Positions 5,562 to 61,756 of a DNA stretch of 64,000 bases are shown here, piece after piece. The stretch is from contig JAGBLF010000004.1 of assembly GCA_017635595.1 (NCBI GenBank), forward strand, positions 1 through 64,000, given 5' to 3'. The position numbers and the translations under genes were made by a program. The notes beneath the pieces are model-generated. The model was not told the origin of the DNA and did not search any database. It worked only from the letters and a program-made list of their open reading frames with translations. This DNA is from Alphaproteobacteria bacterium. GTDB taxonomy: Bacteria; Pseudomonadota; Alphaproteobacteria; RF32; CAG-239. The first letter of the stretch is position 1, and every line of letters begins with the position of its first letter.

Positions 5562-5612
5562 TTGTTTGTTAAAAACCGTGCCGGGGAGTCAAAAACATTT
5601 ATGGAGGGAAAT

Positions 5613-6407
5613 GTGAGAAAATTCGGATTTAAAGTATATAGCTCAAATTTGTATGATGCGCCGGAATTAATAAAAGACTGCGCAAAATATGCATCTTCAG
5701 TTTCGGATGCTTTTATAGAACTTATGATTGTACCGGCATCTACACCGGAAGATTTGAAAAAAATTAAAGAACAAATCGGCGATGTTGAAGTAAGAATACA
5801 CGCCCCGCACGATTCAATGGGTTTTGATCCGGGAAATAAGGAGTTGGAAAAGCAGAATCAGAGCCTTGTGGCTTTATCTCAAAATGCTGCCGATTTTTTT
5901 AATGCGAAAACAATTGTTGTTCATGCCGGATTAGGCCACGGCTTGCAGCATATTGATGAAACCGTCAGACAATTTAAGCTTTTTAACGATTCTCGTATTT
6001 TGGTCGAAAATCTGCCTTATTTAGATTACGGAACCACGCCGATGCACGGAAGTACCGCCGAAGAAATTGCGTATATTATGCAAGGAAGCGGATGCGGTTT
6101 TTGCTTTGATTTTTCACATGCTATTTGTGCGGCATTAAGTCTGAAAACGGATATTGATGTACAATTAAAGAAATTTTTTGACTTAAAACCTACGGTTTAT
6201 CATATGTGTGACGGAGATACCAATCAGGCAAATGATCTTCATATGCATTTTGGAACGGGTAACTTTCCGCTGCCGCACTTCTTAAACGATTTTACCGCAG
6301 AAGATGCTTATATTACCATAGAAACAAGTATGGGTGTTGAAAAAGATGCAACTCTGAGAATACAAGATTATTTGTATCTGAAAGCCGTTCAAAAAGCGTG
6401 CCGATAA
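5613..6407 (+). CDS. TIM-barrel sugar-phosphate isomerase/epimerase-like protein (paralogue B)
   Basis: I choose the GTG at 5613 (264 aa). GGAGGG at 5603-5608 lies just upstream and the resulting start VRKFGFK aligns with MKKFGFK of the copy at 493-1272; a TTG at 5562 and an ATG at 5601 are in frame but would add residues absent from the paralogue. The same motifs are kept: HAPH, HAG, VENLP, DFSHA, YHMCDGD, HMHFGTGN. Base composition matches the surrounding genes, so this is probably the resident copy. It lies 51 bases after the YjbR-like gene and may be co-transcribed with it. The substrate is unknown. Confidence 0.8.
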   Translation: MRKFGFKVYSSNLYDAPELIKDCAKYASSVSDAFIELMIVPASTPEDLKKIKEQIGDVEVRIHAPHDSMGFDPGNKELEKQNQSLVALSQNAADFFNAKTIVVHAGLGHGLQHIDETVRQFKLFNDSRILVENLPYLDYGTTPMHGSTAEEIAYIMQGSGCGFCFDFSHAICAALSLKTDIDVQLKKFFDLKPTVYHMCDGDTNQANDLHMHFGTGNFPLPHFLNDFTAEDAYITIETSMGVEKDATLRIQDYLYLKAVQKACR

Positions 6408-7482: not shown

Positions 7483-7511
7483 TTGACATTAGCGATTGTT
7501 TTCGTTATTTT
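7483..7511 (+). promoter_or_regulatory. Sigma-70-type promoter of the hydrogenase-adhE-rex operon
   Basis: TTGACA (7483-7488) and TATTTT (7506-7511) are separated by exactly 17 bases. The -10 element runs directly into the Rex operator at 7510-7527, so a bound repressor would cover the -10 and the transcription start. The first gene begins at 7540 behind AAGGGGA. Confidence 0.75.
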
Positions 7512-7527
7512 GTGAAAAAAATCACAA
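7510..7527 (+). promoter_or_regulatory. Rex operator (ROP)
   Basis: TTGTGAAAAAAATCACAA is an 18-bp site with perfect TTGTGA and TCACAA arms around six As, matching the known Rex consensus (TTGTGAA-n4-TTCACAA) with arms in register. It overlaps the -10 box and start region of the operon whose last gene, at 14962-15576, encodes Rex itself. This implies NADH-responsive autoregulation of the whole operon. Confidence 0.9.
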
Positions 7528-7539
7528 TAAGGGGACAAA

Positions 7540-7770
7540 ATGGCGATTATAAAAGTTTGTTTGGGAAGTTCTTGCTTTGTACGCGGCAATGATAAAACAT
7601 TGGCTTTTTTGGAAGACTATATCCGTCGGAATAACAAAAATGCAACAATCGAATTACTGGGCTGCCGCTGTACGAATTCGTGTCAGGACGGTCCGACGGT
7701 TTTTGTTGATGATAAAAAATATTGTCATCCGACACAAGAAGAACTTTTACGCATATTGGAGGCTCTATGA
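7540..7770 (+). CDS. Thioredoxin-like [2Fe-2S] ferredoxin (NuoE C-terminal type), hydrogenase-associated
   Basis: The 76-residue protein is a bare thioredoxin-fold [2Fe-2S] domain. Cysteines are arranged as in the NuoE/HydC type: CLGSSC (C-x4-C) near the start and CRCTNSC later (C-x3-C for the second pair). It probably carries electrons to or from the hydrogenase encoded next. It is the first gene of the operon, behind AAGGGGA and directly downstream of the Rex-controlled promoter. Its stop overlaps the next start in ATGA, implying translational coupling. A related protein is encoded at 10647-10907 in front of the second hydrogenase, so each hydrogenase has its own small 2Fe-2S partner. Confidence 0.85.
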   Translation: MAIIKVCLGSSCFVRGNDKTLAFLEDYIRRNNKNATIELLGCRCTNSCQDGPTVFVDDKKYCHPTQEELLRILEAL

Positions 7771-9476
7771 ATATAAATCAGGGAATCGTCTACACCTTAT
7801 ACAACGAGTGCCAGGATTGTTATAAATGCGTTCGCCGCTGCCCGGTTAAGTCTATCCGCATTCAAGACGGCCATGCTTGCGTATTAGCCGATAAATGTAT
7901 TGCTTGCGGTCGTTGTGTTGCACCGTGTCCGAGCCATGCCAAGCGTGTGCGTAATGATTTGGATAAAGTCAGACAATTGATAAACGGCGGGAAACAGGTT
8001 TATGTATCATTGGCACCGAGTTGGCGTGCTTCTTTTTCGTGTACGTCGGGGCAAATGATCGCTACGCTCAAAAAACTCGGTTTTGCCGGCATAAGCGAAA
8101 CGGCCTTGGGTGCGCAGGAAGTCTCAATCGAAACCGCCCGTTTATTGAATCAAAAAGACAAAGGTTTGATGATATCAAGTGCTTGTCCGGTTATCGTTAA
8201 ATATATCCGGCTTTATAAACCGGATTTGGCCGAATATATTGTACCTATTGCTTCGCCGGCTTTAACGCATGCCAAATTATTGAAGAATACTTACGGCGAA
8301 GATGCGGCGGTGGTCTTTATCGGTCCGTGTATTGCTAAAAAAGACGAATCCGATACGCATAAAGATTTAATCGATTATGCCTTAACTTTCGAAGAATTGA
8401 AATTGTGGCTCAAAGAAACCGATACATCTATCGAATCCGGCGATTGCCTGGGTGAAGAATTTGTGCCGACTTTTGCTTATGAAGGTAATTTATATCCGAT
8501 GGACGGCGGTATGTGCGAAACAATCAAAAGAATCGGTATTGAAGACAAAGTCCATTTATATCAGGTTTGCTCTTTAGAAGCTTTTGATTTGGCGGTTGAT
8601 GAGTTTGCTAAAGAGAATTTGAAAAATCCGGTGTTTATCGAGGCTTTGGCCTGTGCCGGCGGTTGTATGCACGGTCCGTGTATAGCCACGAAATTATCTG
8701 ATGTTAATAATGTTTCGCGTGTTTTGCGCCATGTAAAATATCGCGATAGTATTCCGACAACACCGGATGTGGTTGTACCGCAGGAATATGCACCTTTGGA
8801 TGTGGATCGGCGCACCTATTCGATGGATGAAATTCAGGAAGCTCTGCATCGAATCGGCAAATATTTGCCGGAAGATGAATTGAATTGCGCCGGCTGCGGA
8901 TATCAAACCTGCCGTGACATGGCAAAGGCTCTGTTAAACGGTGATGCCGAGCCGTCAATGTGCGTTTCGTATATGCGAAAATTGGCGACTAAAAAAGCCA
9001 ATGCCATGCTTAAAAGTATTCCTTCGGCAATGGTTATGCTGGATAAAGATTTGCGTATTATGGAGGCCAATGAAGCTTTTGCCCGGATGTTTACCGGTGA
9101 AGAACAAGAAACTTATTTATCGGATTTGCAAAAATTGGCCGGCTTGCCGATACAAACATTTTTCAGTGCCGACAAAGTTTTCGCTTCGGTGTTGGCGAGT
9201 GGCAGTGAGGCTCATAAAGAAAACTATAAATTTAATAATAAATTTTATGATTTGCACGTCTTTCCGATTGAGCAAAACACCAGTATAGGCGTGACGATTA
9301 CCGATATGACCAATGCTAATCATGCACGTGAGATTGTGGCGCAAAAAGCTAAAGAAGTTATCGATAAAAATATTTCTACCGTTCAGCAGATAGCTTGTTT
9401 GCTCGGTGAACATATGGTGCAGACCGAAACGATTTTGAACACGATTGCCAATGAATATAATACGGATGAGGAATAA
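7767..9476 (+). CDS. PAS-containing [FeFe] hydrogenase, sensory (HydS/group C-like)
   Basis: I start at the ATG at 7767 (569 aa; GGAGG at 7758-7762). In order: two [4Fe-4S] ferredoxin motifs (residues 15-55); the H-cluster domain with SSACP (137-141), GPCIAKKDE (186-194) and CAGGC (296-300); a further Fe-S motif with cysteines at 374, 377, 382 and 399; and a PAS domain (about 410-530). In catalytic enzymes the first motif reads TSCCP. Here alanine replaces the proton-relay cysteine while the cluster-binding cysteine stays, as in group C sensory hydrogenases. With a PAS domain and a phosphatase gene next door, it more likely senses H2 or redox state than makes bulk H2. Cytoplasmic. Confidence 0.88.
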   Translation: MNINQGIVYTLYNECQDCYKCVRRCPVKSIRIQDGHACVLADKCIACGRCVAPCPSHAKRVRNDLDKVRQLINGGKQVYVSLAPSWRASFSCTSGQMIATLKKLGFAGISETALGAQEVSIETARLLNQKDKGLMISSACPVIVKYIRLYKPDLAEYIVPIASPALTHAKLLKNTYGEDAAVVFIGPCIAKKDESDTHKDLIDYALTFEELKLWLKETDTSIESGDCLGEEFVPTFAYEGNLYPMDGGMCETIKRIGIEDKVHLYQVCSLEAFDLAVDEFAKENLKNPVFIEALACAGGCMHGPCIATKLSDVNNVSRVLRHVKYRDSIPTTPDVVVPQEYAPLDVDRRTYSMDEIQEALHRIGKYLPEDELNCAGCGYQTCRDMAKALLNGDAEPSMCVSYMRKLATKKANAMLKSIPSAMVMLDKDLRIMEANEAFARMFTGEEQETYLSDLQKLAGLPIQTFFSADKVFASVLASGSEAHKENYKFNNKFYDLHVFPIEQNTSIGVTITDMTNANHAREIVAQKAKEVIDKNISTVQQIACLLGEHMVQTETILNTIANEYNTDEE

Positions 9477-10637
9477 ATGTTCATTGATATAGACTGTGCA
9501 CAAATTAAAAAATACGGCCAAAATGCCTTCGGGGATTATTTTGTATCAAAACGCACGGATAATCAGGAGCGTGTGATAGCCGTATTATCCGACGGTTTGG
9601 GTAGCGGTGTTAAGGCAAATATTTTATCGTGTATGACATCAACCATGATGATGCGCTTTATTGAAGAAGATATCCCTATTCAAAAAGCAGCGCAAACGAT
9701 TATGGACTCGTTGCCGGTTTGTCAGGTTCGTAAAATCAGTTATGCCACTTTTTCGGCAATAGACTGTTGGAATGACGGCTCGGTTTGGGTGGTTGAAGAG
9801 GGAAATCCGACGTTTTTATGGATGCGCGGCAATCAGGAAGTTGAGCCGGAATATCAGGAATATACCTCACCTAAATTTCCGGACAGACATTTGAAAATAT
9901 ATCAGTTTAAGGCCGAAGTCGGTGATAGGCTGGTATTTTGTTCCGATGGTGTTACACAGGCGGGGATTGGTACTTCGGGTTATCCGATTGGGTTTAAAAG
10001 AGAAGGTTTTTTGCGGTATGTAAAAGATTGCATAACCCAAAAATCGGATATTTCAAGTACCGAATTGTCTTCAAAAGTTATTCAAAAAGCGTTGTCGGTA
10101 GAGCCGGAAGAACACGCCGGTGATGACATATCGTGTGCGGTTTTGTATTTCAGAAATCCGCGCAAAGCTATGGTTTTTACCGGTCCGCCGTATAATAAAA
10201 TGAAAGACCGCGAATATTGCTTGTCTTTTAGTTTCTTTAACGGTAAAAAAGCAATTTGCGGCGGTACGACGGCCAATTTGGTTTCCCGCGAGCTTAAACG
10301 GGATATCATTAATTTGCCGCAACCGCAATCGGGCGATTTGCCGCCGGTGGCCGTTATGGATGGGATTGAGTTGGTTACCGAAGGTATTCTGACTCTTACC
10401 CGAGCGGCGGAATATCTCGAGCGTGAAGAGCTTAAGCATCAAGATGCCGCCGGTCAGCTGGTTGATTTCTTTTTAAGTTCGGACATGATTGAGTTTATGG
10501 TCGGTGCTATGCTTAATCAGGCACATTATGATCCGACATTGCCGATTGAAATAGAAGTCAGAAGAACTATTATTAAGAAAATAAAGAAACTGTTGGAAGA
10601 AAAGTATTTTAAACAAGTTACGATCCATTATATGTAG
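9477..10637 (+). CDS. SpoIIE/PP2C-type serine phosphatase linked to the sensory hydrogenase
   Basis: The 386-residue protein carries the PP2C/SpoIIE phosphatase core: LSDGLGSGVKA near residues 37-47, LVFCSDGVTQAG at mid-length and HAGDDISCAVL near residue 215, which supply the aspartates of the metal centre. The C-terminal 150 residues are a different domain that I do not recognise. It has no spacing from the hydrogenase stop, so translation is coupled. SpoIIE-type phosphatases adjoin sensory [FeFe] hydrogenases in anaerobes, so a natural reading is that the PAS-hydrogenase signals through protein dephosphorylation. The phosphoprotein substrate and matching kinase are not in the window. Confidence 0.85.
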   Translation: MFIDIDCAQIKKYGQNAFGDYFVSKRTDNQERVIAVLSDGLGSGVKANILSCMTSTMMMRFIEEDIPIQKAAQTIMDSLPVCQVRKISYATFSAIDCWNDGSVWVVEEGNPTFLWMRGNQEVEPEYQEYTSPKFPDRHLKIYQFKAEVGDRLVFCSDGVTQAGIGTSGYPIGFKREGFLRYVKDCITQKSDISSTELSSKVIQKALSVEPEEHAGDDISCAVLYFRNPRKAMVFTGPPYNKMKDREYCLSFSFFNGKKAICGGTTANLVSRELKRDIINLPQPQSGDLPPVAVMDGIELVTEGILTLTRAAEYLEREELKHQDAAGQLVDFFLSSDMIEFMVGAMLNQAHYDPTLPIEIEVRRTIIKKIKKLLEEKYFKQVTIHYM

Positions 10638-10646
10638 GAGAGCCAA

Positions 10647-10907
10647 ATGGAAAAGATAAAAGTAAAAGTATGTCAGGGAACAACTTGTTACGTTATGGGC
10701 GGCGATGTTGTTAAATCTATCCTTGATACCTTAACCGAAAAATATGCCGATAAAGTCGAAATCGTATCTGTCAGATGTTTTGAAACATGCCATAAGCAAG
10801 ATTCTTTTTCGAAAGCACCGTTTGTTTATATTGATGATGAGGTCGTATCATCTGCCAGCGTCGAAAAAGTAATTAATGCGATTGAAAGTAAATTAAGTGA
10901 TGAGTGA
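10647..10907 (+). CDS. Thioredoxin-like [2Fe-2S] ferredoxin, second copy
   Basis: This 86-residue small protein has the same fold signature as the first gene of the operon: CQGTTC (C-x4-C) and CFETC (C-x3-C), ending in a hydrophobic strand and helix. It is preceded by GGAGAG right after the phosphatase stop. Its 3' end overlaps the next gene by eight bases. It probably passes electrons to the second hydrogenase. The two copies are clearly diverged, so this is not a recent duplication. Confidence 0.85.
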   Translation: MEKIKVKVCQGTTCYVMGGDVVKSILDTLTEKYADKVEIVSVRCFETCHKQDSFSKAPFVYIDDEVVSSASVEKVINAIESKLSDE

Positions 10908-12372
10908 AGAACTGGAAACCAGAAGATTAAAACGCGAAGTTTTAGTGCGTATCATTAAAGCTTTTATGTCTGACAATTATGCGGAAAATGTTCGTCTTAT
11001 TCCGTATGAAATGCGTCCGAAAGGGTGCGAAGTCCCGTTCCGTTGCTGTGTGTATAAAGAACGTGCCGTTTTACGTTCCAGAACCATTGCCGGATTGGGT
11101 TTTGCTATGGAAGATGATGATGAGCGCACTCTTCTTTCGGATTTTGCCGAAAAAGCTTTGGAAAGAGAACATCCCGAACCGGAACCTTTAACGGTTTTGC
11201 AAAATGCTTGCAAAGGATGTCCGTCATCAAAAGTTTTTGTAACCGAATTGTGCCAAAATTGCGTGGCTAAGCCGTGTATGAAGGCCTGCCGTTTTGGTGC
11301 CATCAGCAATGACGGTCATCGCTCGGTTATTGATAGTGAAAAATGCAAAAAATGCGGTTTGTGTATGGCAGCATGCCCGTACAGAGCCATTGTTAAAACA
11401 ATAGTGCCGTGTGAAGAAGCTTGTCCGGTCGGGGCTATTGCCAAAGGTGAAGACGGCTTGGCTCATATTGATAAAGATAAGTGCATTTCGTGCGGTAAAT
11501 GTGTATCGGCTTGTCCGTTCGGAGCACCGCATGCTAAATCGCAAGTTATCGATATTTTGAAAAATATTAAAGCGGGCAAAGAGGTTATCGCCCTCATTGC
11601 ACCGGCATTAATCGGACACTTGCCGTGCAAGCCGGAGCAAATTCAAGATGCGTTTTTGAAAATCGGATTTTCTGCCGTTTACGAAGTAGCGCAGGGAGCT
11701 GATGTTACCGCTAAGACAGAAGCTAAAGATTTTCAGGAGCGCTTGGAAAACGGGGCGCCGTTTATGACAACTTCCTGCTGCGCCGGATGGAATGAGCTTG
11801 TTAAGAAGCACATGCCGGAAATCACACCGTATGTTTCAGATGCCAAAACACCGCTTTATTACACGGCGGAAATCGTTAAAAAAGAACATCCGGATGCGGT
11901 AACAGTATTTGTGAGCCCGTGTTTTGCCAAACGCCGCGAGGTTTTGGATAACCCGAATGTTAATTATTTGCTGAATTTTGAAGAATTAGGCGCTATGCTT
12001 ATTGCTTTGGGTATAGAAATTGATGTTTGCGAAGAAAAAGAATTTGAATATCAAAGTTCTAAAGAAGCCAGAGAATTTGCATTAACCGGCGGTGTTGCCC
12101 GCTCGGTTCAAGCTGCCTGGAAAGGTGAAGAAGGTGCCGTCAAACCGGTTGTTGTCAACGGGTTGGATAAAGCGGCTGTTCGTAATTTAAGAGCATATGC
12201 CAAGATGGGTAAGTGCCCTGACGGAAATTTAATTGAAATTATGTGCTGTCAAGGCGGCTGTATAGCCGGTAATGCCTGCCTGGGCTCTCTTAAAGATGCC
12301 TTCAAAAAAGTTACGGATTATGGAAACAAAGGTCAATCATTAGAAACAGAAAGGAAAATTATTAATGACTAA
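10900..12372 (+). CDS. Catalytic-type [FeFe] hydrogenase (group B-like, monomeric)
   Basis: I use the ATG at 10900 (490 aa) overlapping the previous stop; a GTG sits one codon upstream. Residues 1-100 are a non-cysteine-rich N-terminal region. Then come clustered cysteines (104-205), including CKKCGLCMAACP and CISCGKCVSACP ferredoxin motifs. The H-cluster motifs are TSCCAGW (291-297), SPCFAKR (339-345) and MCCQGGC (448-454). The relay cysteine absent from the sensory paralogue is present, so this should be the H2-producing enzyme. The usual TSCCP proline is alanine here. Electrons may come from ferredoxin or from the small 2Fe-2S proteins. The H-cluster needs HydE, HydF and HydG, none of which is in the window. 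Confidence 0.88.
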   Translation: MSEELETRRLKREVLVRIIKAFMSDNYAENVRLIPYEMRPKGCEVPFRCCVYKERAVLRSRTIAGLGFAMEDDDERTLLSDFAEKALEREHPEPEPLTVLQNACKGCPSSKVFVTELCQNCVAKPCMKACRFGAISNDGHRSVIDSEKCKKCGLCMAACPYRAIVKTIVPCEEACPVGAIAKGEDGLAHIDKDKCISCGKCVSACPFGAPHAKSQVIDILKNIKAGKEVIALIAPALIGHLPCKPEQIQDAFLKIGFSAVYEVAQGADVTAKTEAKDFQERLENGAPFMTTSCCAGWNELVKKHMPEITPYVSDAKTPLYYTAEIVKKEHPDAVTVFVSPCFAKRREVLDNPNVNYLLNFEELGAMLIALGIEIDVCEEKEFEYQSSKEAREFALTGGVARSVQAAWKGEEGAVKPVVVNGLDKAAVRNLRAYAKMGKCPDGNLIEIMCCQGGCIAGNACLGSLKDAFKKVTDYGNKGQSLETERKIIND

Positions 12373-14959
12373 TGTTGTAACAGTGGAAGATCTGGATAAA
12401 CTTCTGGATCGTGTTCATATTGCGCAAAATCAATTTGCGACATTTTCTGAAGAAAAAGTCGATGCCATTTTTAAGGCAGCTGCCACAGCCGCCAATAAAA
12501 TGCGTATCGATTTGGCCGAAATGGCTGTCGAAGAAACCGGAATGGGTGTTTTGGAAGATAAAATCATCAAAAATCACTTTGCATCGGAATATATTTATAA
12601 CAAACATAAAGGTGTTAAAACCTGCGGTATCATTAAGCGCGACAAAGCTAACGGTATCAAAATTGTTGCCGCTCCTTTAGGTGTTTTGGCCGGTATTGTT
12701 CCGACAACCAACCCGACATCAACGGCTATTTTTAAATCTCTTATTTGTTTGAAAACCAGAAACGGTATCGTTTTTTCACCGCACCCGCGTGCTAAAAAAT
12801 CAACAATTGCTGCTGCAAAAGTCGTATTGGATGCTGCTGTTAAGGCCGGTGCGCCGAAAGATATTATCGGTTGGATTGAAGAACCGACAATCGAGCTTTC
12901 AAATGCTTTGATGACACATCCTAAAATTCAGGGTATTTTGGCTACCGGCGGTCCGGGAATGGTAAAAGCCGCATATTCAAGCGGTAAGCCGGCTTTAGGT
13001 GTCGGGTCGGGTAATACACCGGCGATTATCGATGAAACGGCAGACATTAAATTGGCCGTATCTTCCATTTTGATGTCAAAAACTTTTGATAACGGTATGA
13101 TTTGTGCTTCGGAACAATCTGTTGTTGTGGTTAAAGATGTTTACGAAGAAGTCAAAAAAGAATTTGTATATCGCGGTGCTTATTTGCTCAACAAAAAAGA
13201 AGCCGAAATGCTGTCCAAGATTATTTTGACGGACAAAGGCGTTAATGCCGCCATCGTCGGTCAGCCGGCGTATAAAATTGCCGAATTGGCCGGATTTAAG
13301 GTGCCGGAAAGCGCCAAAATTTTGCTTGCCGAACAGACAGACTATACCAATGCCAATCCGTATGCACATGAAAAATTGTCTCCGATTTTGACAATGTACA
13401 AGGTTGATAATTTTGAAAAAGCCACCGATGTTGCTTGGGCTTTGATTAATCTCGGCGGTTTGGGGCATACATCTGTTTTATATACGGATGCCCGTGTTCA
13501 AGACAGAGTAGATTTCTATGCGCAAAAAATGCCGACAGGCCGTATTTTGATTAATTCGCCGGCATCACAGGGCGGTATCGGTGATTTATATAACTTCCGT
13601 CTGGAGCCGTCTTTGACACTTGGTTGCGGTTCATGGGGAGGCAACTCGGTCAGCGAAAACGTCGGTGTCAAGCATTTGTTAAACTATAAAACAGTGGCAG
13701 AAAGGAGAGAAAATATGTTATGGTTTAAGGTTCCGCCGAAAATTTATTTCAAACGCGGTTCAACAGATTTGGCTTTGCGTGAATATGAAGGTAAAAAACG
13801 TGCCTTTATCATAACCGACAGATTCCTGTTTGACAGCGGTGCGGTACGTACCATTACCGATACATTGGAAGAAATCGATATCGACTATCAGATTTTCTTT
13901 GATGTTAAGCCGGATCCGACACTTTCTACCGCTAAAACCGCTTTGGCTATGGTTAATACCTATCAGCCGGATTTGATTATCGCTTTGGGCGGCGGTTCGC
14001 CGATGGATGTCGGTAAAATCATTTGGTTGATGTATGAACAACCGGAAACCAACTTTGAAGATATTTCTATGCGCTTTATGGATATCAGAAAACGTATTTG
14101 CTCGATTCCGGATTTGGGTAAAAAAGCCGATTTGGTATGTATTCCGACGACATCGGGTACCGGTTCGGAAGTGACACCGTTCTCTATTATCACCGATGAT
14201 GAAACACACGTTAAATATGCCATTGCCGACTATGCTTTAACGCCGAAAATGGCAATTATCGATGCTAATTTTGTGGACGGTATGCCTAAAGGTTTGACTT
14301 CGGCCGGCGGTATTGATGCTTTGGTACACTCTATCGAAGCCTATGTTTCTTGTATGGCAACAAACTATACCAACTCTTTGGCTCTGGAAGCAATCAAACA
14401 AATTTTCCGCTATTTGCCGCGTTCGTATGAAAATGGTGCAAATGATCCGGTTGCTCGCGAAAAAATGCACAATGCGGCAACGATTGCCGGTATGGCGTTT
14501 GCCAATGCCTTTTTGGGGCTTTGTCACTCCATGGCTCATAAATTGGGTGCTATGTACAACATTCCGCACGGTATAGCCAATGCTTTGTTGTTGTGCCAAA
14601 TCATTCGCTTTAACGCAACGGATTGCCCGAAAAAACAAGCTATTTTCCCGCAATATGTTGCTCCGGAAGCTAAAAAGCGCTATGCTCAAATTGCTCATGT
14701 TTTATATTTGGGTAATGAAAACAGCACTGATGACGAAAAAGTCGAGTTGTTGTTAAAAGCTATTGTTGAATTAAAGAAAAAAATCGGTATTCCGTCTTCT
14801 ATTCGCGAATACGGTATCGATGAAAAACTCTTTAAGGAAAACTTGGATAAACTTGTTCGTTTGGCCTTTGATGACCAGTGCACCGGCGCTAACCCGGTAT
14901 ATCCGTTGATGAGTGATATCAAACAGATTTATCTGGATGCTTTCGAAGGAAAATTTTAA
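12365..14959 (+). CDS. adhE: Bifunctional acetaldehyde-CoA/alcohol dehydrogenase AdhE
   Basis: The 864-residue protein has full AdhE architecture. An N-terminal CoA-acylating aldehyde dehydrogenase domain (about 1-440) has the catalytic cysteine in GMICASEQS. A C-terminal iron-dependent alcohol dehydrogenase domain has GGGSPMDVGKIIW, TTSGTGSEVTPFSII and the metal-binding HSMAHKLG and IPHGIANA histidines. It reduces acetyl-CoA to ethanol, reoxidising two NADH. Its start overlaps the hydrogenase stop by eight bases, which makes it part of the Rex-controlled operon. It has the usual length for the family. AdhE normally assembles into spirosomes. Confidence 0.95.
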   Translation: MTNVVTVEDLDKLLDRVHIAQNQFATFSEEKVDAIFKAAATAANKMRIDLAEMAVEETGMGVLEDKIIKNHFASEYIYNKHKGVKTCGIIKRDKANGIKIVAAPLGVLAGIVPTTNPTSTAIFKSLICLKTRNGIVFSPHPRAKKSTIAAAKVVLDAAVKAGAPKDIIGWIEEPTIELSNALMTHPKIQGILATGGPGMVKAAYSSGKPALGVGSGNTPAIIDETADIKLAVSSILMSKTFDNGMICASEQSVVVVKDVYEEVKKEFVYRGAYLLNKKEAEMLSKIILTDKGVNAAIVGQPAYKIAELAGFKVPESAKILLAEQTDYTNANPYAHEKLSPILTMYKVDNFEKATDVAWALINLGGLGHTSVLYTDARVQDRVDFYAQKMPTGRILINSPASQGGIGDLYNFRLEPSLTLGCGSWGGNSVSENVGVKHLLNYKTVAERRENMLWFKVPPKIYFKRGSTDLALREYEGKKRAFIITDRFLFDSGAVRTITDTLEEIDIDYQIFFDVKPDPTLSTAKTALAMVNTYQPDLIIALGGGSPMDVGKIIWLMYEQPETNFEDISMRFMDIRKRICSIPDLGKKADLVCIPTTSGTGSEVTPFSIITDDETHVKYAIADYALTPKMAIIDANFVDGMPKGLTSAGGIDALVHSIEAYVSCMATNYTNSLALEAIKQIFRYLPRSYENGANDPVAREKMHNAATIAGMAFANAFLGLCHSMAHKLGAMYNIPHGIANALLLCQIIRFNATDCPKKQAIFPQYVAPEAKKRYAQIAHVLYLGNENSTDDEKVELLLKAIVELKKKIGIPSSIREYGIDEKLFKENLDKLVRLAFDDQCTGANPVYPLMSDIKQIYLDAFEGKF

Positions 14960-14961
14960 TA

Positions 14962-15576
14962 ATGACGGCAATTTCAAACAAAATAATTAATCGATTGACA
15001 CTGTATCACTGCATTTTGAAGTATACGGCGAAAGATCAGACGAATATTTCAAGTTTTGAAATTGCCGATTTATTGAATTTAAATGATTCTTTAGTGCGCA
15101 AGGACATCGCTCTGTGCGGTGTCCTCGGGCACAAAAAACAAGGCTATTTTATCGATGATCTGAAAAAAGCTATTGAGCAAAAACTCGGTTTTACCGAACA
15201 TAAGGAAGTATTTGTTATCGGTGCCGGTAATCTCGGGACGGCGCTTGTCAAATATGCCGATTTTAAAGATTATGGTATAGATATTTTGGCTTTATTTGAT
15301 AATAATGTCGATAAAATAGGGCAGGAAGTTAACGGCAAACGCGTTTTGGCACTTAAAAAACTTGAAGATCTGGTTGCCAGAATCAATGTCAAAAATGTTA
15401 TTTTGGCGGTACCGCCGCAAGTTGCGCAGGAAGTTACCGATTATGCCGTTAAATGCGGCGTACGTTTTATTTGGAATTTTACACCGACGGTTTTAAAAGT
15501 GCCGAAGTCGGTTACGGTTTACTACGAAAATATTGTCAGCAGTTTTATGCAAATGCGTAATTCAACAATTTCATAA
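14962..15576 (+). CDS. rex: Redox-sensing transcriptional repressor Rex
   Basis: The 204-residue protein has the Rex layout: an N-terminal winged helix (about 1-80, with SSFEIADLLNLNDSLVRKDI as the recognition region) and a Rossmann domain with GAGNLGTAL around residue 88. The C-terminal helix fits the domain-swapped dimer. Rex binds DNA when NAD+ prevails and releases it when NADH rises. It starts two bases after adhE, and a perfect Rex operator lies at the operon promoter (7510-7527), so it controls its own synthesis. Rex is common in Firmicutes and Actinobacteria but, to my knowledge, sparse in Alphaproteobacteria. Confidence 0.93.
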   Translation: MTAISNKIINRLTLYHCILKYTAKDQTNISSFEIADLLNLNDSLVRKDIALCGVLGHKKQGYFIDDLKKAIEQKLGFTEHKEVFVIGAGNLGTALVKYADFKDYGIDILALFDNNVDKIGQEVNGKRVLALKKLEDLVARINVKNVILAVPPQVAQEVTDYAVKCGVRFIWNFTPTVLKVPKSVTVYYENIVSSFMQMRNSTIS

Positions 15577-58915: not shown

Positions 58916-59124
58916 GTAATGTGGTGAAAACACATAAGTGCCCTATATGTAAAAAGATTTTTACGGATGAAAAATATGCCCCGTTTTGCTCGAAAAGATG
59001 TGCGGATGTTGATTTGGGACGTTGGTTTAACGGCAGTTATGCCGTGCCGTTGGTTGAACCTGATGAATTAGATACGGAAGAGTTAAATGAAATCGCCGAA
59101 AGTAACGGATATACCGATGAATAA
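58912..59124 (+). CDS. yacG: DNA gyrase inhibitor YacG (zinc protein)
   Basis: I choose the GTG at 58912 (70 aa), overlapping the previous stop (GTGA) with GGGGAGAG at 58897-58904 as its ribosome site; GTGs at 58921 and 58924 are alternatives. The zinc motif is C-P-I-C, then FCSKRCADVDLGRWF, the typical YacG signature. It binds GyrB in other bacteria. The following STAS-MlaE gene overlaps by eight bases. Confidence 0.9.
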   Translation: MSNVVKTHKCPICKKIFTDEKYAPFCSKRCADVDLGRWFNGSYAVPLVEPDELDTEELNEIAESNGYTDE

Positions 59125-60226
59125 CATCGTAATTACGGCTGAAAATGATAAACTTAATATCATTTTCAGCGGTGATGTGCTCGGTTGCGACAGTGCCGGC
59201 GCAGTTCAAAAGATTCAAGGTATGCTGCAATCCGGTATTAAGCAAGTCGTCATTAAGGCGGAAGATCTCGAACAGTGGGATTCTTCGCTTTTGGTTGTTA
59301 TATACGAAACTTTGCGCTTGGCTCAGGCAACTAAATTGAAAGCGGATATTAAGGGCTTGCCTAAAAATCTGCGCGATTTGATGCAATTGGCCTTTGCCGA
59401 TGATCGTAAGCCGACACATGGCGGAGAGGATTACTCGTTTTTAGAAAGTATCGGAAAAGCGACAATAGATTCTGCAAAGACTGTTTCTGCGGTGTTTTCT
59501 TTTTTGAAACAAACGTTGTCGTCGCTCGGGCGTTTTTTCAGCGGTAATTCGGTTATGCGCGGTGTCGATTTTTGCAGTGCGCTTGAAGATTGCGGACCCA
59601 AAGCGATAGCCATAGTTTCACTTATCAGTTTTTTGGTCGGCTTGATTTTGGCTTTTGTCGGCGCGATTCAGCTACAAACATTCGGCGCGCAGATTTATGT
59701 GGCCAGTTTGGTTACTATCGGTATGTGCCGGATTATGGGGGCGATTATGGTCGGTATTATTATGGCCGGCCGTACGGGTTCATCATATGCTGCAACTATC
59801 GGTACCATGCAGGTTAATGAAGAATTGGATGCTTTGCAAACTATGGGGCTATCCAGGGTTGATTTTTTGGTTTTGCCACGGATATTTGCTCTGATTCTGG
59901 CAATGCCGATTTTAACGATGTTGGCAGATATTATGGGTATGATCGGCGGTGCAACGGTTGGGGTGTTTATGCTTGATTTACCGTATGAAGAATATTTGAA
60001 ATATACGCTTAATGCTTTTAATTTGAAGAACTTTCTGGTTGGTATTTTCCACGGATTTTGTTTCGGTATCATTATTGCTTTATGCGGTTGTTACAGCGGT
60101 TTGACTTGCGGGCGCAACGCCGACAGTGTTGGTGTGGCAACAACAAAATCGGTGGTTAGCGCTATTGTCTGGATGATAGTGACAACCGGCATTATCACGG
60201 TTATCTGTTTGGAGTTGGGTATATGA
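59117..60226 (+). CDS. mlaE: ABC phospholipid transporter permease MlaE with N-terminal STAS domain
   Basis: I start at the ATG at 59117 (369 aa). Residues 1-100 are a STAS domain (AENDKLNIIFSGDV, then QWDSSLLVVIYETLRLA). The rest is a standard MlaE permease with five or six helices, including MAGRTGSSYAATIGTMQVNEE and LGLSRVDFLV-type segments. Enterobacteria encode the STAS part as separate MlaB, so this is a natural fusion known in other Alphaproteobacteria. It moves phospholipids between membranes with MlaF and MlaD. Confidence 0.92.
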   Translation: MNNIVITAENDKLNIIFSGDVLGCDSAGAVQKIQGMLQSGIKQVVIKAEDLEQWDSSLLVVIYETLRLAQATKLKADIKGLPKNLRDLMQLAFADDRKPTHGGEDYSFLESIGKATIDSAKTVSAVFSFLKQTLSSLGRFFSGNSVMRGVDFCSALEDCGPKAIAIVSLISFLVGLILAFVGAIQLQTFGAQIYVASLVTIGMCRIMGAIMVGIIMAGRTGSSYAATIGTMQVNEELDALQTMGLSRVDFLVLPRIFALILAMPILTMLADIMGMIGGATVGVFMLDLPYEEYLKYTLNAFNLKNFLVGIFHGFCFGIIIALCGCYSGLTCGRNADSVGVATTKSVVSAIVWMIVTTGIITVICLELGI

Positions 60227-60978
60227 AGAAGGCGGTTAAAATAGATGTTAAAGATCTAACCGTCGGCTACGGCGATTATGTGTTGCTACACGATGCAAAC
60301 TATCAGGTTAATCAGGGCGATATTTTCATCATTATGGGCGGCAGCGGCTGTGGCAAAAGCAGTATGTTGCGTGTTTTAACAGGGTTAATTCCGCCGCTTA
60401 AAGGGGATGTTGTTATTGATGGGATTAATATGGTTTCCGGCGCCGCAGATAAGGTACAGAAAATTCGGGAAAAATCCGGTATTTTGTATCAAAGCGGTGC
60501 TTTATTCAGTTCAATGACACTATCCGAGAACATAATGTTGCCTTTACAGCAATATACCGATTATTCACCGGCAACCATGCGTGAATTGGCCAGTTTGAAA
60601 TTAGCGCTTGTCGGTTTAACCGGTTTTGACGATTTTTATCCGTCGGAAATCAGCGGCGGTATGAAAAAACGCGCCGGCTTGGCGCGTGCATTGGCACTTG
60701 ATCCGGATATTGTGTATTTTGATGAACCGTCAGCCGGTTTGGACCCGATAAGTTCGCGTAACTTAGATGATTTGATTTTGGAAATTAATCAGAGTTTAGG
60801 TACAACCATAGTTGTCGTTACGCACGAGCTGGCTTCGATTTTTGCCATCGGGAACAATTCGATATTTTTGGATGCCGAAACCAAAACAATATTGGCACGC
60901 GGCGATCCGCACGAACTTTTGAAAAATCCGCCGAACGAGGCTGTCTATAAATTTTTAACACGCGGGGAGAAGAAATAA
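60223..60978 (+). CDS. mlaF: ABC phospholipid transporter ATPase MlaF
   Basis: The 251-residue ATPase has Walker A GGSGCGKSS, the signature SGGMKKRAGLARAL, and Walker B IVYFDEPSAGLDP with the D-loop after it. It powers the STAS-MlaE permease in the inner membrane. Its start overlaps that gene by four bases (ATGA), so the two are coupled. It is slightly shorter than enterobacterial MlaF (about 270). Confidence 0.94.
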   Translation: MKKAVKIDVKDLTVGYGDYVLLHDANYQVNQGDIFIIMGGSGCGKSSMLRVLTGLIPPLKGDVVIDGINMVSGAADKVQKIREKSGILYQSGALFSSMTLSENIMLPLQQYTDYSPATMRELASLKLALVGLTGFDDFYPSEISGGMKKRAGLARALALDPDIVYFDEPSAGLDPISSRNLDDLILEINQSLGTTIVVVTHELASIFAIGNNSIFLDAETKTILARGDPHELLKNPPNEAVYKFLTRGEKK

Positions 60979-60979
60979 A

Positions 60980-61756
60980 ATGCAACAGAAGAAAACGTTT
61001 AAAATGGTTGGTTTATTTGTCCTTATCGGTTTTCTCGGTTTGGGCTCGATAATTTTTTATTATGTGCACAAGCAGTTCGCGGTTAATACAAGAGATTGGG
61101 TTGTTATGTACTTTGAAGAATCCATTCGCGGTCTGAACGTCGGTTCGTCGGTTGTTTTCAAGGGCGTTGAAATAGGCAAAGTTGCTCAAATAAAATTAAG
61201 AACAAACTTAAAAGAAGGGACTTTTCAGACACCGGTTTTTGTAAATATTGAGGGTAATGAAAAAATTATCGAACGTGAGGATACCGGAGAATATGAAGAA
61301 TACATGCTGACTAATTTGATAAAGAAGGGTTTGCGTGCAAAATTAATCAGCGCCAATTATTTAACGGGGCAGTTAATGATAGAACTGGTAATGGACCCAA
61401 GTGTTAAGGCCGAATTTCGCGGTACGGGCAAGTATCCTGAAATTCCGACAATGCTTTCGCCGTTTGCCGCTATTTCAAATGATTTAAAAGAAATCCCGAT
61501 GCGTGAAAGTTTAATGCGGTTCGGCAATATTTTACAGGATATTGAAGATAAATTGCCGCAGATTTTGGATAATACAACGCAAATTACACAAAAAATGAAT
61601 GTGATGTTGGATAAAAAATCAGGAGAGGCTTCTAAGTCTATGAACAGTTTTAATTCGACAATGGAAGAAATCAGTAAAACCAGTCGCTCGATTAAAAATC
61701 TCACAGACTATCTTGAACGCCATCCGGAAGCTTTGCTAAGAGGAAAGGAGAAGTAA
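60980..61756 (+). CDS. mlaD: MlaD-family (MCE) substrate-binding protein
   Basis: The 258-residue protein has an N-terminal inner-membrane helix (about 9-30) and one MCE domain (about 38-135, with GLNVGSSVVFKGVEIGKV, then KGLRAKLISANYLTGQL). A coiled-coil tail follows. It forms the hexameric periplasmic ring above MlaE. The gene starts after one base behind mlaF. It is longer than E. coli MlaD (183), mainly in the helical tail. Confidence 0.9.
   Translation: MQQKKTFKMVGLFVLIGFLGLGSIIFYYVHKQFAVNTRDWVVMYFEESIRGLNVGSSVVFKGVEIGKVAQIKLRTNLKEGTFQTPVFVNIEGNEKIIEREDTGEYEEYMLTNLIKKGLRAKLISANYLTGQLMIELVMDPSVKAEFRGTGKYPEIPTMLSPFAAISNDLKEIPMRESLMRFGNILQDIEDKLPQILDNTTQITQKMNVMLDKKSGEASKSMNSFNSTMEEISKTSRSIKNLTDYLERHPEALLRGKEK

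Follow-up and report, generated by a model that had tools for sequence, protein, structure and literature searches.

What might be sensed by an [FeFe] hydrogenase (HydS) that has lost the relay cysteine of its active site, carries a PAS domain and is followed directly by a phosphatase gene, and to what protein could such a signal be passed? The locus that raises this question lies in a window of 64,000 nt, by which we mean the whole stretch of DNA analysed, from contig JAGBLF010000004.1 of an Alphaproteobacteria bacterium (CAG-239; GCA_017635595.1), a small-genome gut alphaproteobacterium whose genome is 96% complete.

Layout and distribution of the fermentation operon

The pair belongs to a predicted seven-gene fermentation operon on the forward strand (7540–15576), with the order trxA, hydS, phosphatase, trxB, hydB, adhE and rex, downstream of a predicted sigma-70-type promoter (TTGACA-N17-TATTTT, 7483–7511, + strand; 10/12 matches in a consensus scan). 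The first gene, trxA (7540–7770), encodes a NuoE-like thioredoxin-fold [2Fe-2S] ferredoxin of 76 aa (PF01257, 40.4 bits), and its stop overlaps the start of hydS (ATGA). The product of hydS (7767–9476) is a putative sensory [FeFe] hydrogenase of group C3 type, 569 aa long, recognised by PF02906, PF04060, PF13237 and PAS matches, by trees, and by residues conserved in 99 relatives. Its TAA (9474–9476) is followed on the very next base by the ATG of a SpoIIE/PP2C-type Ser/Thr phosphatase of 386 aa (9477–10637; PF07228, 56.8 bits, cut-off 25), just as the first-pass annotation had described. From trxB through rex, consecutive genes overlap or are separated by no more than 9 bases: trxB (10647–10907) encodes a second NuoE-like [2Fe-2S] protein (86 aa; PF01257, 30.2 bits), hydB (10897–12372) a monomeric catalytic [FeFe] hydrogenase of group B1 with the usual TSCC (TIGR04105, 506 bits, cut-off 450), adhE (12365–14959) a bifunctional acetaldehyde-CoA/alcohol dehydrogenase (NF010378, 1372.6 bits, cut-off 951), and rex (14962–15576), last in the operon, an NADH/NAD+-sensing repressor (NF003994, 199.4 bits, cut-off 130). 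The catalytic enzyme does therefore share the operon with HydS, as had been proposed, even though trxA as operon start, and adhE and rex as operon end, had been overlooked. Two similar xylose-isomerase-like TIM-barrel proteins, apparently paralogues, are encoded nearby (493–1272 and 5562–6407).

The HydS and phosphatase genes adjoin in 98/98 related loci, across several phyla, where both are on the contig, and such pairing is far beyond chance. Most of 100 loci from Alphaproteobacteria, Gastranaerophilales and Margulisbacteria keep the order trxA-HydS-phosphatase-trxB-HydB, and in nearly all cassettes the pair lies between the two NuoE-like [2Fe-2S] proteins. Within the same family (35 genomes), the ~390-aa phosphatase is found in every genome with HydS and in no genome without it; a phylum-wide search of 398 genomes found it in the window's genome only, and it is common in Gastranaerophilales and present in Margulisbacteria. 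Viral contigs yielded no relative of the phosphatase and one partial HydS-like match. Two separate HydS lineages occur in the host family, and that of the window is 53–56% identical to the Gastranaerophilales and Termititenax proteins, compared to only 42–45% to the family's other lineage. Quick trees of HydS and of HydB both put Termititenax beside the window's lineage, and the simplest reading of these comparisons is probably horizontal transfer of the whole cassette across phyla. When adhE and/or rex accompany the cassette, they do so in at least three arrangements, namely downstream (alphaproteobacteria), upstream (some Gastranaerophilales), or on both sides (Termititenax). A record titled 'Lactobacillus sp.' (L082; JAISFX010000169.1), whose HydS groups with those of Termititenax and Adiutrix, is probably a mislabelled bin.

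Active site and class of HydS

From its N-terminus, HydS contains two [4Fe-4S] motifs, an H-domain (PF02906, 153.8 bits, cut-off 22.1), a C-x2-C-x4-C-x16-C motif (C374/C377/C382/C399), a PAS domain, and, at the C-terminus, a signalling helix of 47 residues (517–563). The PAS domain recognised in the first-pass annotation is supported by PAS_8, which passes its cut-off (22.9 bits against 21.8), with PAS_9 just below (26.3 against 27), and residues 421–513 show a mixed alpha/beta order compatible with PAS in a predicted structure that is weak overall (pLDDT 72.6, and <50 for the signalling helix). Also correct was the observation that SSACP replaces TSCCP: this motif spans residues 137–141, with A139 at the relay position of CpI C299 and C140 as a ligand of the H-cluster. 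In 99 related sequences, the H-cluster cysteines (C140, C188, C296, and C300) and all 12 accessory FeS cysteines (C15/18/21/25, C44/47/50/54, and C374/377/382/399) are invariant, and A139, G186 (CpI M353) and L294 (CpI M497) represent a fixed Ala/Gly/Leu combination, found in 99/99 relatives in place of C/M/M. Sensory enzymes overall, on the other hand, have Ala at C299 in ~43% of cases and Cys in 17%, and show no conservation at M497 (PMC10055695); the present HydS lineage has therefore fixed its pocket.

Loss of the relay cysteine does not, however, equal loss of activity. TmHydS of Thermotoga maritima (PMC10055695, PMC8163306), which resembles HydS in having Ala at CpI C299, Gly at M353 and a PAS domain, and differs from it at M497 (Ser, as opposed to the Leu seen in 99/99 sequences here), is active with its alanine, and less so as an A131C variant (PMC10055695). 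SSACP is thus a class marker and no proof of inactivity, and both a lost relay and high hydrogen turnover are weaker tests than was first assumed.

A C-x2-C-x4-C-x16-C motif combined with PAS is how group C has been described (PMC8163306), and within it HydDB names subtype C3 'phosphatase-linked (putative)' and lists its role as undetermined (PMC5037454). HydS shares with that subtype the H-domain, the PAS, the C-terminal FeS motif and the neighbouring Ser/Thr phosphatase gene, and departs from it in having an alphaproteobacterial host. Because it combines the H-cluster cysteines, the FeS motifs, a PAS placed after the H-domain and the phosphatase neighbour, and falls outside groups A and B, we regard HydS as a putative member of HydDB [FeFe] group C3, an assignment made by anatomy. 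Scores against the curated models for groups A and B stay far under their cut-offs (TIGR02512, 94 bits, cut-off 405.95; TIGR04105, 176.8 bits, cut-off 450), and in a tree of H-domains, a check suggested at the outset, HydS branches as a clade of its own (support 99), away from catalytic group A (100) and group B (93) as represented by the other [FeFe] hydrogenases of this genome, one of group A6 and two of group B. The second of these group B enzymes (G000:C30:31538-34147; L001, L003) is 85% identical to the window's HydB over the compared columns and adjoins a group A6 NADH-dependent HydA, and is probably the result of a recent hydB duplication to a bifurcating or NADH-linked locus.

We consider it rather doubtful that redox state, and not H2, is what HydS senses, with its clusters set by electrons from ferredoxin or the two [2Fe-2S] thioredoxin-like proteins and with any H2 turnover incidental. 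The two NuoE-like proteins that flank the pair, the invariant relay cysteines of the N-terminal [4Fe-4S] motifs, and the redox repressor (Rex) in the same operon would all suit such a sensor, but the invariance of every H-cluster ligand in the 99 sequences, together with a HydF maturase encoded in the genome (481 bits, cut-off 325), by which the H-cluster presumably can be made, argues for actual use of the H-cluster. We think it highly improbable that HydS is a slow catalytic hydrogenase, for H2 uptake or evolution, beside a phosphatase that works independently. Although the active, alanine-bearing TmHydS (PMC10055695) gives this reading a precedent, it would leave a PAS domain and a conserved C-terminal helix to account for, along with a phosphatase that strictly adjoins HydS and co-occurs with it, an operon already equipped with a full catalytic group B enzyme, and A/G/L fixed in place of C/M/M.

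The phosphatase and its possible output

The phosphatase consists of a PP2C domain (~1–226) and an uncharacterised alpha/beta domain (~228–386). In its AlphaFold2 model (pLDDT 86.9), the Foldseek matches shown, to SpoIIE, RsbU, and RsbX, are all to the PP2C domain, whose aspartates D20/D39/D157/D216/D217 do not vary across 99 sequences. The fold and the metal-binding aspartates are those of the RsbP/RsbU-type phosphatases of the SpoIIE family, and RsbP is arranged as sensor, then helix, then phosphatase, the same order in which these elements follow one another in the HydS-phosphatase pair. Unlike in those proteins, sensor and phosphatase are here separate polypeptides, the phosphatase has an extra C-terminal domain, and the genome encodes no RsbV/RsbW partners. 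A fusion of HydS to the phosphatase, sought as direct proof of interaction, was found in none of ~100 loci. For the C-terminal domain, no noteworthy Pfam, NCBIfam or PDB sequence match was obtained, even at E 10 with an alignment as query; given its near-invariant motifs (GPP, GGTTAN, RE, LVTEGILTLT, and N-x-A-H), this orphan domain appears to be the likeliest route to the phosphatase target.

Of the sensor-phosphatase reading first proposed for this locus, the pairing itself is in agreement with the anatomy of both proteins and with the published class C3, but the suggested anti-sigma output lacks its components in this genome. No match to STAS (PF01740) was found genome-wide, the sole STAS_2-like match being the MlaE permease (59087–60226), and no RsbW-type ATPase scored above cut-off, weak matches being histidine kinases. 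Four other genomes with HydS (G082, G122, G034, and G117, in 8–20 contigs each) were likewise found to have neither RsbW nor a free-standing STAS protein. For the window's genome we therefore reject an RsbV/RsbW output and regard a standard anti-sigma switch as unlikely. That the phosphatase, given a PP2C domain of the SpoIIE/RsbU kind, drives a classical RsbU-RsbV-RsbW partner switch to free a sigma factor is therefore very improbable in a genome that has no PF01740 match, no STAS-like protein but MlaE, and no RsbW-type ATPase above cut-off. MlaE itself, with an N-terminal STAS domain, belongs to a set of mlaE-mlaF-mlaD lipid transport genes (59087–61756).

The search for a partner kinase, also suggested by the first-pass annotation, did return one protein-kinase-domain protein (G000:C14; L159:623-2092), of 489 aa and with C-terminal hydrophobic segments, but similar matches are present in nearly all searched relatives, those without HydS included, and no opposing kinase or target could be identified in the genome. 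The genome's second SpoIIE phosphatase (G000:C15; L160:1938-3611), with a Cache-type sensor and HAMP, is unrelated to HydS. Some relatives (G028:C17:12816-15415, G066:C26, G042:C15, and others) have, beside a free STAS protein, a separate ORF of ~780 aa that combines a SpoIIE domain and an RsbW-type ATPase domain; this ORF is not in the window's genome and its occurrence among relatives is independent of HydS.

Rex, its candidate operator, and a proposed control unit

The operon's rex is the only one in the genome, as a single PF06971 match was found genome-wide. A palindrome, TTGTGAAAAAAATCACAA (7510–7527, + strand), overlaps the -10 box of the predicted promoter, and its exact sequence occurs nowhere else in the window or the genome; in shuffles of the upstream region, an exact palindrome match arose in 0/20000 cases and one with a single mismatch in 27/20000. 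Among alphaproteobacterial loci with a full downstream flank, and accepting up to 2 mismatches, the palindrome was present in 7/7 lineages in which rex closes the operon and in 0/5 without rex (Fisher p 0.001, a test that ignores relatedness). In four genomes whose operons lack rex (G077, G018, G076, and G069), no Rex was found genome-wide, G076 and G069 being only 76–81% complete. Yet another relative, G070, retains the operator on a contig that ends within hydB. The same palindrome, with one mismatch, is seen in Termititenax just 5' of adhE in a rex-carrying operon. No good match was found in Gastranaerophilales that have adhE-rex upstream of the cassette, so the operator rule holds for alphaproteobacteria and Termititenax only. 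A palindrome of the TTGTGA-N6-TCACAA type at the promoter, along with a rex gene, gives the operon the features of a Rex regulon, and we consider the site a putative operator. A Crp/Fnr protein as reader of TGTGA-N6-TCACA was also considered and rejected, because no HTH_Crp_2 match above cut-off was found in 27 genomes and the site overlaps the -10 box, a repressor position.

In our opinion, it is rather probable that the operon controls the H2/ethanol branch of fermentation as a self-contained unit, with the HydS-phosphatase pair and Rex as its inputs. Gene order, domains, ligands, conservation, co-occurrence and the operator-rex linkage, all read directly from sequence, form the base of this proposal. 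HydS would bind H2, the ligand we infer, or exchange electrons at its H-cluster, and the redox or ligand state would reach the PAS by way of the C-terminal [4Fe-4S] cluster and, beyond it, the 47-residue helix, which by contacting the co-translated PP2C phosphatase would switch it on or off. The phosphatase, if active, might through its C-terminal domain dephosphorylate a protein other than an RsbV-type STAS factor, and this step would tune how strongly the co-transcribed group B hydrogenase and AdhE are expressed, or how active they are. The second input would be transcriptional, in that Rex, encoded by the same transcript, would repress the single promoter through the -10 palindrome until NADH/NAD+ rises. 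Against such a control unit, TmHydS keeps its activity with the same alanine, so a catalytic role for HydS is possible. More tentatively, the output of the pair may be of a novel kind, in which the orphan domain recruits a non-STAS phosphoprotein, perhaps the operon-encoded HydB, AdhE or Rex, to provide direct post-translational control of how H2 and ethanol are partitioned, beside the transcriptional control by Rex.

Two experimental systems offer parallels. In the hfsABCD operon of Thermoanaerobacterium, HfsB is a PAS-hydrogenase, HfsC a serine phosphatase, and HfsD a catalytic hydrogenase (PMC5707799, PMC11837493), and deletion of hfsB raised adhE expression and ethanol yield (PMC5707799). 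The order of sensor, phosphatase and catalytic hydrogenase is the same, and so is the tie to adhE, which in hfsABCD is genetic (expression), whereas here adhE and rex lie inside the operon and the catalytic partner is of group B instead of HydA2-like. The hydS locus of Ruminococcus albus is one eight-gene cluster, regulated by H2 level, in which a sensory hydrogenase, a phosphatase, a catalytic hydrogenase and a bifunctional aldehyde/alcohol dehydrogenase are found together as they are here, its catalytic enzyme being a ferredoxin-only group A1 hydrogenase and not of group B1 (PMC6776011, citing Zheng et al. 2014); when the bacterium was grown together with an H2 consumer, this hydS/adhE/hydrogenase cluster was down 111-fold (PMC6776011).

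Phosphatase-linked sensory hydrogenases are a type already known, and the pair in this window is a putative further case. What is new is the alphaproteobacterial host, the group B catalytic partner and the Ala/Gly/Leu combination fixed in 99/99 sequences, to which are added an operon-borne redox repressor gene with a matching putative operator and a genome that lacks the customary target of such phosphatases. Further gains are a cassette shared across phyla, the case against RsbV/RsbW and the phosphatase's orphan domain. The targets of these hydrogenases are an open question for the field, their role being listed as undetermined in HydDB (PMC5037454). The host family, with gut genomes of ~1.2–1.9 Mb in which HydS and phosphatase are gained or lost together and STAS and RsbW are sometimes missing, leaves fewer candidates for such a target. 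Several of its genomes argue against a standard anti-sigma switch, and the conserved orphan domain provides a handle on the target, in a module tied to a one-operon Rex circuit. How H2 and ethanol are partitioned in the gut and rumen, in turn, bears on methane formation.
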